DNA of 35,022 nucleotides from Asaia bogorensis. GTDB taxonomy: Bacteria; Pseudomonadota; Alphaproteobacteria; Acetobacterales; Acetobacteraceae. The translations under genes and the position numbers were made by a program. The notes under the pieces are model-generated. The model had not been told where the DNA came from. It made no database searches and worked only from the letters and a program-made list of their open reading frames with translations. Positions 7,174 to 8,960 of the stretch are shown in pieces (the stretch's first letter is position 1; each line of letters begins with the position of its first letter). The DNA lies in NCBI GenBank assembly GCA_945873195.1, contig CAMCDA010000022.1:1-35022 (forward strand), read 5' to 3'.

Positions 7174-8145
7174 ATGAAGCCATCCTGGATCGGCGCGGCC
7201 GCGGCCGTGCTTATGACGATGTGCGCGCCCATCCTCGCGCGCGCCCAAGCCCCGCTGAACTGGCCGACCAGGCCCGTCAAGATCGTCGTGCCCTATGCAC
7301 CTGGCGGGTCGACAGACAATGCCGCGCGCCCCTTCGCCGACCGGCTTTCCATCGCGTTCGGACAGCAATTCGTGATCGAAAACAAAGGCGGCGCATCCGG
7401 TGTGGTGGGCACCGAATACGTCATGCGCTCCGCACCCGATGGCTACACGTTCGGCGTCGTCCCCGTAGCCACCATGACCGTGCTGCCGGCCGCACGGAAA
7501 ATGCCCTTCGATCCGTTCAAGGATTTCGTGCCTGTCTCGAAAATATTCGAGAACACGTTGGTATTCTCAATCCATCCGTCACTGCCCGCGACGACGATGG
7601 AGGAGTTCGTGGCCTACGCAAAGGCCAACCCCGGCAAGATCGCGTTCGGGTCCTCCGGCACCGGCACCATGACCCAGATGACGTGCGAGAGCGTGAAGGC
7701 CGCGGCCAAGATCGACATCCTGCACGTGCCCTATCGCGGCGGCGCCGAGGCGCTGAGCGACTTCCTCGCCGGTCACGTCCAGGTCCACTGCGAGGGCAAC
7801 ATCCTCCCCCACGTCAAAGCCGGAAAGGCTCGGCTTTTGGGCGTGGCCGACAACGAACGCCATCCCGACTTCCCCGATGTCCGCATGCTGAAGGAAATCT
7901 GGGCGGAGGCGGACTCCGTCAGTTGGGGCGGCCTCTTCGCGCCCGCCGGCACGCCCGACGCGATCGTCCGCCGCCTGAGCGCGGAAATCCAGAAGATCGC
8001 CAAGGACCCAGCGTTGAAGGAGCAGATGATGAAGATCGCCGTCCGGCCGGCGGGAAGCACACCCGAGGAACTCGGCGCGGAACTGCGGAAGGACTACGAA
8101 CGCTATGGCAATCTGGTGCGCACGTTGAACATCCGGATGGACTGA
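7174..8145 (+). CDS. Bug-family periplasmic solute receptor (paralogue B)
   Basis: The 323-aa precursor has a signal peptide (MKPSWIGAAAAVLMTMCAPILARA, cut near ARAQ). The full Bug motif set follows: WPTRPVKIVVPYAPGGSTDN, GQQFVIENKGGASGVVG, SAPDGYTFGV, NTLVFSIHPSLPA and HVPYRGGAEALSDFLAGHVQV. CAGGGAG before the ATG is the ribosome site. It closely parallels the receptor at 5007 and differs mainly in the ligand-facing loops and the region after residue 235, so the two may bind related but different ligands. No permease gene is adjacent. Confidence 0.93.
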   Translation: MKPSWIGAAAAVLMTMCAPILARAQAPLNWPTRPVKIVVPYAPGGSTDNAARPFADRLSIAFGQQFVIENKGGASGVVGTEYVMRSAPDGYTFGVVPVATMTVLPAARKMPFDPFKDFVPVSKIFENTLVFSIHPSLPATTMEEFVAYAKANPGKIAFGSSGTGTMTQMTCESVKAAAKIDILHVPYRGGAEALSDFLAGHVQVHCEGNILPHVKAGKARLLGVADNERHPDFPDVRMLKEIWAEADSVSWGGLFAPAGTPDAIVRRLSAEIQKIAKDPALKEQMMKIAVRPAGSTPEELGAELRKDYERYGNLVRTLNIRMD

Positions 8146-8170
8146 TCGCCCGGCGGAGAATCGCCTGATT

Positions 8171-8223
8171 GTTGTTGCGCGGCCCTGGGAACCGGCTCAT
8201 GGTCCCCAAATCGTGGCAACAAC
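8171..8223 (+). ncRNA. Nested inverted repeats ahead of a short ORF (candidate structured leader)
   Basis: GTTGTTGC (8171-8178) pairs perfectly with GCAACAAC (8216-8223). Inside this, TGGGAACC pairs with GGTCCCCA (7 of 8 positions) across a 7-base loop. The two stems would form one elongated hairpin with an internal loop. It ends immediately before the strong ribosome site at 8226-8238. Position and nesting suggest a structured 5' leader for the short ORF at 8241. No known riboswitch class is recognised. Confidence 0.4.
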
Positions 8224-8225
8224 TG

Positions 8226-8238
8226 GAAGGAGGTGATC
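8226..8238 (+). promoter_or_regulatory. Extended Shine-Dalgarno, perfect 13-nt match to the 16S 3' tail
   Basis: AAGGAGGTGATCC is the exact reverse complement of the conserved 16S rRNA end GGATCACCTCCTT. Ordinary genes in this window match at four to six bases. It sits two bases before GTG at 8241. That spacing is short from the 3' edge of the pairing but normal from the GGAGG core. Confidence 0.6.
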
Positions 8239-8240
8239 CT

Positions 8241-8306
8241 GTGTCTCATTGTTCGGTGGCTTTCATTGCCTTGACCTGGATCGCCGGCGCGAACGCGACG
8301 GCATAG
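8241..8306 (+). CDS. Candidate 21-aa small protein or leader peptide
   Basis: GTG at 8241 starts a 21-codon frame ending TAG at 8304-8306. It begins MSHCSVAFIALTW and has a hydrophobic core (VAFIALTWIAGA), with one cysteine, one histidine and one tryptophan. The start lies directly after a 13-base perfect Shine-Dalgarno, nested hairpins lie upstream, and a hairpin follows 36 bases after the stop. This arrangement suggests a real short transcription unit. Alternatives are a leader peptide for tag, or an RNA whose purpose is to bind the ribosome and whose ORF is incidental. No family is recognised. Confidence 0.4.
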   Translation: MSHCSVAFIALTWIAGANATA

Positions 8307-8342
8307 ACTATTGGGTCCGGCAACGGACGTCATAAACAATGC

Positions 8343-8372
8343 GAAGGCCCCGGGGGCGACCCTGGGGCCTTC
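8343..8372 (+). terminator. Terminator-like hairpin after the short ORF
   Basis: GAAGGCCCC (8343-8351) and GGGGCCTTC (8364-8372) form a perfect 9-bp stem with a 12-base loop, 36 bases after the short ORF and 27 before tag. A T-tract is missing. It could end the short transcript or act as an attenuator in front of tag. Confidence 0.5.
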
Positions 8373-8399
8373 GGCATGTCAGGTGGGGGAGAAACCATC

Positions 8400-8960
8400 A
8401 TGACCACGCGCTGTCCCTGGGCCGAAAAGGGCGATGACGCCTACAAGGCCTACCACGACACCGAATGGGGCGTGCCGGTCCGCGACGACCGCACGCTGTT
8501 CGAATTCCTGACGCTGGAAGGCGCCCAAGCCGGGCTGTCCTGGCACAGCGTCCTGATCCGCCGCGAAGGCTACCGCGCCTCCTTCCACGGCTATGACATC
8601 GACCGCATCGTCGCGATGACCGATGACGACCTGCAAGGCCTGATGCAGGGCGGGCCGATCATCCGCAACCGCCTGAAAATATGGTCCGTCCGCGACAATG
8701 CCCGCATCGCCCAGCAGGTCATCGCCGAACACGGTAGCCTCGATGCCTATATCTGGTCGTTCGTCGACGGCAGGCCGATCGTCAACACGTGGACCGAGCA
8801 CACGCAGGTACCCGCAACGACGCCGGCCTCCGACGCCATGAGCAAGGCGCTCCGCAAGCGCGGGTTCCGTTTTGTCGGCTCCACCATATGCTACGCGTTC
8901 ATGCAGGCGACCGGCATGGTCAACGACCACCTGACCACCTGCTTCCGCCACGGCCACTGA
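8400..8960 (+). CDS. tag: DNA-3-methyladenine glycosylase I
   Basis: The 186-aa enzyme cuts 3-methyladenine out of alkylated DNA, the first step of base excision repair. It has the Tag hallmarks: MTTRCPWAEK at the start, YHDTEWGVPVRDDRTLFEFLTLEGAQAGLSW, and the C-terminal NDHLTTC. The structural zinc ligands known from the E. coli enzyme correspond here to C5, H19, H177 and C181, all present. I chose the ATG at 8400, preceded by GGGGGAG, because it gives the usual length. An ATG at 8376 would add eight odd residues and lies almost against the hairpin. The stop is 17 bases before the amidohydrolase gene. Confidence 0.96.
   Translation: MTTRCPWAEKGDDAYKAYHDTEWGVPVRDDRTLFEFLTLEGAQAGLSWHSVLIRREGYRASFHGYDIDRIVAMTDDDLQGLMQGGPIIRNRLKIWSVRDNARIAQQVIAEHGSLDAYIWSFVDGRPIVNTWTEHTQVPATTPASDAMSKALRKRGFRFVGSTICYAFMQATGMVNDHLTTCFRHGH

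Follow-up and report, generated by a model that had tools for sequence, protein, structure and literature searches.

Between a gene for a TctC receptor and tag, which is followed by a gene for an M20-family amidohydrolase, a contig of Asaia bogorensis (CAMCDA010000022.1, assembly GCA_945873195.1; the 35,022 nucleotides analyzed are called the window here) carries a short stretch with a complement to the 3' tail of 16S rRNA, a tiny open reading frame (ORF), and a terminator-like stem. The question raised by this locus is what such a stretch does. The initial annotation described a compact unit and proposed three roles: a tiny membrane peptide made at a very high level, a leader of tag, or a ribosome-titrating or ribosome-sensing RNA. 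Sequence comparison indicates that the element is a free-standing small RNA gene of approximately 150–170 nucleotides and a homologue of the Rfam family CC2171 (RF01867). The compact, free-standing unit was borne out, including its exceptional docking site and a real small ORF, the coordinates of which had been given exactly (Table 1). What the analysis adds are a reading frame that is kept while its peptide is nearly free, a 15-nt docking complement, and a self-complementary mimic of the 16S tail; the RNA family itself was already known.

Table 1. Features of the element and its flanks in window coordinates
Feature	Position	Strand	Remarks
TctC, tripartite tricarboxylate receptor (PF03401)	7174..8145	+	Flanking gene, outside the element
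Upstream inverted repeats	8171..8223	+	In relatives a promoter-like region, no conserved hairpin
Whole element	8217..8371	+	Full-length RF01867 (CC2171) match, model positions 1–159 of 159
Extended Shine-Dalgarno (SD) GGAAGGAGGTGATCC	8225..8239	+	Complement of the 16S 3' tail; class-wide conserved form GAAAGGAGGTGATCC
13-mer AAGGAGGTGATCC within the SD	8227–8239	+	Read from the sequence
ORF, GTG start, TAG stop, 21 codons, peptide MSHCSVAFIALTWIAGANATA	8241..8306	+	Frame conserved, amino acids hardly
Long-range helix, 5' arm CATTGTT, codons 3–5	8247..8253	+	Partner 8335–8341; minimum free energy (MFE) fold, pair probability, class-wide co-change, kept in the genus
Internal 16S-tail mimic GGATCGCC	8278..8285	+	Complementary to GGTGATCC of the SD
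Hairpin GTCCG-GCAA-CGGAC, 3' of the stop codon	8315..8328	+	Stem invariant in 30 genus copies
Long-range helix, 3' arm AACAATG	8335..8341	+	Adjoins the terminator-like stem; fold, pair probability, co-change
Terminator-like G+C-rich stem-loop	8343..8372	+	Co-varies in the genus; U-tract absent from the window copy
tag, DNA-3-methyladenine glycosylase I (PF03352)	8376..8960	+	Flanking gene, in general outside the element

Relationship to the CC2171 family and distribution

A search of the window against Rfam at the curated thresholds yielded no match. At an E-value threshold, RF01867 ("caulobacter sRNA") matched with 64.5 bits (E 2.5e-13 and 1.6e-13), and the same model yielded a single, full-length match in the whole assembly (E 1.2e-12). 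The score lies below the RF01867 gathering score of 75, as was the case in 72 of the 85 genomes with a match (E ≤ 0.001) in a sample of 385 genomes of the class (own genome included), only 13 of which exceeded the cut-off. We therefore term the window copy a homologue or variant and not a curated member; the Rfam cut-off excludes the majority of the homologues found here. Six of the eight relatives supplied reached it. Among 14 control genomes a match was obtained in Caulobacter vibrioides only, and in a sample of the phylum all matches (42 of 249 genomes, own counted) fell within the class to which the window belongs.

The initial annotation had staked its proposal on the presence of similar elements in close relatives, and blastn detected the element in 34 of 58 relatives, including 30 of the 32 within the same genus (own genome excluded). 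When the core of the element was searched as a pattern with at most two mismatches, it was present in 57 of the 385 class genomes and in at least 120 named stretches; the records listed include Methylobacterium, Bosea, Microvirga, Brevundimonas, Phenylobacterium, Caulobacter, Roseomonas, and Rhodopseudomonas. One of these stretches (L146) belongs to a metagenome bin titled Ramlibacter, which we take to be a non-alphaproteobacterial name, and the bin may be misassigned. Genomes of the class sample mostly carry one copy; copies with differing ORFs are located on two separate contigs of Methylobacterium tarhaniae DSM 25844 (L075 and L138), so some genomes carry two. A phage or plasmid origin was rejected, as the phage collection gave no match and the plasmid collection one short match (14% of the query). 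On the 308-kb replicon NZ_CP086109.1 of Skermanella mucosa, 42 bases (176722–176763) matched the core at 90.5%, with no feature annotated there.

CC2171 was reportedly first described by Landt in 2008. No function for the family was found in the literature searched on CC2171/RF01867, and the kept frame with its free peptide, the 15-nt complement to the 16S tail, and the mimic were absent from that literature; Landt 2008 may describe the ORF. The RNA has been catalogued as an sRNA in print since 2017 or earlier (PMC5596092), and its translation goes unmentioned in the available parts of PMC11701678 and PMC5596092, which by title are the sole papers retrieved that name the family in context.

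For the comparisons below, 216 copies were collected and dereplicated to 151 (<85% identity), which reduced shared ancestry and did not remove it. Collection required an SD and a start codon with TC after it, which by itself accounts for part of the conservation seen there; no rule was imposed on ORF length, helix, or mimic.

The docking site and the 16S tail

In the window copy, 13 consecutive Watson–Crick pairs are formed with the 16S tail, or 15 pairs including one G-U over the whole extended SD; the 13-nt match of the initial annotation is real and had been placed one base too low (8226–8238). The predicted duplex of the SD with the 16S tail amounted to −28.7 kcal/mol; the Rfam 16S model gave no match in the own assembly or in 12 other genomes, and the tail sequence was taken from loci at which the class-wide 15-mer lies antisense to 16S genes. 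A search of 240 class genomes placed the exact 15-mer GAAAGGAGGTGATCC at 70 sites in 62 of them, compared with one site for the reversed 15-mer; the own assembly has no exact copy. Thirty of the 70 sites were read: 16 were this element by architecture, 13 lay on the antisense strand of 16S genes at their 3' end and hence reveal the tail sequence, and one lay at another small ORF. Two of the 13 antisense sites were verified with the Rfam 16S model, and the other 11 are taken to be 16S. One of the 16 element sites (L264) had no RF01867 match at E ≤ 0.001. The sole site that was neither antisense to 16S nor clearly the element (L259) carries an ORF of 40 codons with the stop counted and a terminator-like stem; it had no Rfam match at E ≤ 0.001 and is possibly a divergent copy.

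A whole-genome search for the 13-mer followed by a small ORF had been suggested by the initial annotation. The match goes beyond chance: the 13-mer is present twice in the 5.4-Mb assembly, and the conserved GTGTCTCA does not come after it at the second site (L002). Over 149 copies, conservation 5' of the start codon was highest over GAAAGGAGGTGATCC and the preceding CAACAA stretch. The leading GA of the 15-mer, which the search rule did not impose, was kept in 143 and 142 of the 149 copies, and conservation fell at the two positions just before the complement to the 16S tail.

A site of this kind could work as a trap or titrator, in which the 15-nt duplex holds 30S subunits and lowers initiation under some condition, translation being unneeded. 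That the conserved complement spans the tail seen at the 16S loci, with a fall in conservation immediately outside it, is consistent with such a role, and the helix at +6 described below would be expected to hinder accommodation; a trap leaves the kept frame and stop position of the ORF unexplained and would need a high abundance of the RNA, and we consider it very unlikely.

The reading frame and the peptide

None of the 151 copies had a frame 0 stop before codon 14; the stop was at codons 14–32 in 144 copies and later in 7. In frame +1, stops fell before codon 14 in 69 copies, at codons 14–32 in 33, and later in 49, and the corresponding counts in frame +2 were 40, 35, and 76. Over codons 6–14, 7.5 nonsense changes were expected from 216 substitutions in 64 independent pairs, and a stop was present in 0 of the 216 copies. 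A TGG motif was in frame in 112 cases and out of frame in 18. The comparison across copies indicates that the reading frame of the ORF is under selection. These counts bear on the view that CC2171 is a purely noncoding, trans-acting sRNA, which pairs with mRNAs or sponges sRNAs of the anti-SD type and in which the SD-like stretch and the ORF are incidental. Such a view would leave both the absence of early stops, found in frame 0 alone, and the missing nonsense changes without a reason, and we judge it unlikely even though the Rfam type (sRNA), a structure that includes a long-range helix, and the variable neighbours of the element are in its favor.

The ORF was also sought at the places found with the Rfam model. 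The class search gave 92 places, of which 69 were fetched besides the own; the ORF was present by rule in 64, was recognized by eye in three more (L225, L241, and L249), and was absent at two (L244 and L252).

Past codon 5, dN/dS was 0.92 (bootstrap 0.77–1.07; 61 independent pairs with equal ORF length), and the two false frames gave 0.86 and 0.90. Substitutions at codon positions 1, 2, and 3 numbered 159, 168, and 148, with no third-position excess. The amino acids are therefore hardly selected, and the purifying selection of a small-protein gene was not found; for codons 2–5, selection on amino acids is inseparable from that on the helix. The genus of the window alone gave 0.78 (14 pairs, without an interval). 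Within clades, the peptide is not wholly random, with EQP stretches and W at codons 12–14, so a weak selection on amino acids may persist. A group of peptides that often start with MSSE or LSSE (L212, L217, L220, L226, L229–L231, L238, L246, L247, L251, and L264) shares the EQP stretch. In L037, L040, and L216, an ORF of 55–58 codons replaces the tiny ORF behind the complement to the 16S tail; these ORFs have a signal-peptide-like start, and their Cys-containing tails look related.

A functional small peptide, for example one in the membrane, made at a very high level from an RNA that is merely its mRNA, would account for the very strong SD and the strictly open ORF, and the clade-wise motifs and the three longer ORFs also suit it. 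The near-neutral dN/dS, for which this reading was down-weighted, and a peptide that differs in length and sequence between clades both argue against it, and the hydrophobic core on which the membrane peptide of the initial annotation was built is not kept elsewhere; we regard a peptide function as quite unlikely, somewhat more so than a noncoding sRNA. An ORF that is kept open without its peptide being kept suggests, at the level of sequence, that the act of translation matters and not its product. In the available parts of a ribosome profiling study (PMC4117421), ncRNAs, mostly intergenic, were untranslated, which counts against translation of CC2171, and two formerly predicted ncRNAs, named in its dataset, were translated; CC2171 could be one of these two.

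Predicted fold and the long-range helix

The RNA from 8206 to 8377 had a predicted free energy of −76.5 kcal/mol (z = −4.08; none of 200 dinucleotide shuffles was as good), and its predicted fold is a rod in which CATTGTT of codons 3–5 is paired with AACAATG beside the terminator-like stem (pair probability 0.93–0.95). The SD lies outside the rod; the MFE structure places part of it in a small local hairpin, with a mean unpaired probability of 0.48–0.49. The helix corresponds to CAUUGUC...GACAAUG of RF01867 and is already in the Rfam structure of the family, for which Rfam 15 reports one extra covarying pair (PMC11701678).

Co-change of the two arms was measured in 137 copies; here and in the ensemble test, 11 of the 148 were omitted because they had no terminator by rule. 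The pairing run of a copy's own arms averaged 5.80, compared with 4.23 ± 0.09 for swapped arms. When the 66 copies lacking CATTGT, the common form, were taken alone, the own run was 5.03 and the swapped run 3.81 ± 0.11, the highest of 500 swaps reaching 4.16. Divergent arms that still match each other include CATGAAT/ATTCATG (L213), AATGAGATT/AATCTCAT (L057), and CATCGC/GCGATG (L158). The own run was 4 or shorter in 32 of the 137 copies, partly because the terminator rule chose another hairpin. Within the genus, the helix is nearly invariant (25–30 of 30 copies identical per pair), and the terminator stem shows changes on both sides. The initial annotation had named covarying stems as a check, and the helices do co-change. 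In predicted ensembles of the full RNAs across the class, which ignore pseudoknots, proteins, and ribosomes, the long-range helix exceeded a probability of 0.5 in only 50% of the 137 copies.

The terminator-like hairpin annotated at 8343–8372 is real as a stem; the T-run that follows the stem in many relatives is absent from the window copy, and a terminator scan called no site there on the plus strand, the same stem being terminator-like on the minus strand.

The 16S-tail mimic and two predicted states

Sequence in the ORF's second half looks like the 16S tail and complements the SD of the same element. The duplex between SD and ORF was stronger than in shuffles, with a mean z of −1.85 (n = 148, three of the 151 copies with an ORF of more than 36 codons being left out; Wilcoxon p 5e-25), and reached p ≤ 0.05 singly in 48% of the 148 copies, compared with a z of −0.13 (p 0.60) for control sequence of equal length 3' of the ORF. 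The signal persisted in 39 independent segments (shuffled-SD z −2.07, codon-order z −1.40). Of the 148 copies, 124 reached a duplex energy of −13 kcal/mol or lower; in these, the duplex ended a median of 18 nt (IQR 14–20) before the end of the ORF; the spread of this position was 7.5 compared with 14.6 in codon shuffles, the copies being filtered (≤ −13 kcal/mol) and the shuffles not. The mimic of the window copy forms a duplex of −15.2 kcal/mol with the SD and is weakly populated in its own nascent fold.

With the RNA cut at the stop codon, the mean pairing between SD and ORF was 0.55 (n = 137). In the full RNA this mean was 0.18, and that of the long-range helix was 0.45 (n = 137). For the window copy, the state in which the SD is paired with the mimic had a probability of 0.06–0.27 in the RNA cut at the stop codon and 0.00 in the full RNA; the genus mean was 0.35.

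Surroundings of the element

The nested inverted repeats reported at 8171–8223 are present in the window and are paired in a predicted fold. Relatives have, by eye, promoter-like sequence in place of the 5' arm, so the repeats are not a conserved structure, and they were rejected as a conserved regulator. The promoter-like pattern (CTTG[AC] at about −65 to −68 and [TC]A[TC]nnT at about −41 to −43 from the start codon) was scored in 34 of 149 copies compared with 1 of 149 shuffled; no such pattern was scored in the window itself. A terminator-like hairpin was observed at 8152–8165, just 3' of the TctC gene, and would set the element apart from that gene.

Downstream, a motif that presumably marks tag came next in 14 of the 30 genus copies; of the 133 others with enough sequence, none had it within 900 bases. 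Of 99 downstream ORFs, 70 were scanned against Pfam and hit 97 families, each represented by at most two members. The longest downstream ORF was on the same strand in 43 of the 99 and on the other strand in 56, a count that antisense ORFs may blur. The neighbourhood is lineage-specific and no fixed downstream operon was found, and the leader of tag proposed by the initial annotation was rejected as a general role. An attenuator-like leader of the downstream gene would find some footing in the tag motif of the genus copies and in the window's terminator-like stem without a T-run; set against the absence of the motif outside the genus, the scattered Pfam families, and the mixed strands, such a function seems extremely unlikely for the element. 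The window copy (8343–8400) and its sister (L003 and L004) have lost the U-tract behind the terminator stem and lie a few bases short of tag, which in this lineage could allow transcription to run on into the gene.

Discussion

We give about an even chance to the reading that the element, instead of being purely noncoding, is a dual-function RNA or small mRNA whose fold is gated by the docking and transit of ribosomes. During synthesis of the RNA, the mimic would tend to cover the SD. With the 3' end in place, the RNA would be closed into a rod by the long-range helix, which would free the SD, and the rod would place a helix just inside the start site (+6), where it could gate initiation. A 30S subunit would dock very tightly through the 15-nt duplex and would have to open this helix for the start, and the transit of a ribosome through the ORF would then open the rod and cover the mimic. 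As transit would change the structure in this way, the fold of the RNA, and along with it RNA stability or pairing to a target or protein, could report docking and translation, and the peptide would be a by-product. Counting against this reading are the weak pairing of SD and mimic in the window copy, the short pairing runs of 32 copies, and a long-range helix that exceeds 0.5 in only half of the class-wide ensembles. The reading comes close to the RNA sensing or titrating ribosomes that the initial annotation had listed among its roles.

A wider reading, which we put forward as tentative and hold to be doubtful, is that CC2171 may be a ribosome-gated RNA switch over much of the Alphaproteobacteria, with translation as a purely mechanical input by which the cell reads its initiation capacity. 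On the same tentative footing, such a switch might be put together from 30S docking, an ORF that runs through the mimic with no peptide to preserve, and a helix between codons 3–5 and the terminator that turns ribosome traffic into a state of the RNA. CC2171 is listed as an sRNA family, and its RNAs appear to be organized around translation. Were this true, the family would be a clean natural case of a free-standing RNA in which selection on the ORF concerns the act of translation, not the product; it would allow the effects of very long SD duplexes to be tested, and it might serve Alphaproteobacteria as a gauge of ribosome availability.

Among known systems, RF01867 is the closest, with which the window element shares a full-length alignment, the order of parts, the long-range helix, and the terminator stem. 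The Rfam entry, of type sRNA, differs from the present reading in that it shows neither an ORF nor pairing between SD and mimic, and the window copy differs from the family in its score below the cut-off and in the absent U-tract. The rnTrpL/peTrpL system of Alphaproteobacteria, one of their dual-function or attenuator-derived RNAs (PMC10117765 and PMC7298713), resembles CC2171 as a short RNA with a tiny ORF whose fate is coupled to translation; CC2171 differs in having no tied downstream operon, a peptide that is hardly kept, and a long SD, whereas rnTrpL/peTrpL starts leaderless. The extended SD mRNAs of Staphylococcus aureus, in the available part of PMC13009471, likewise pair with the 16S tail over more than the usual length, whereas CC2171 covers 15 nt of the tail in one free-standing, mostly single-copy small RNA gene.
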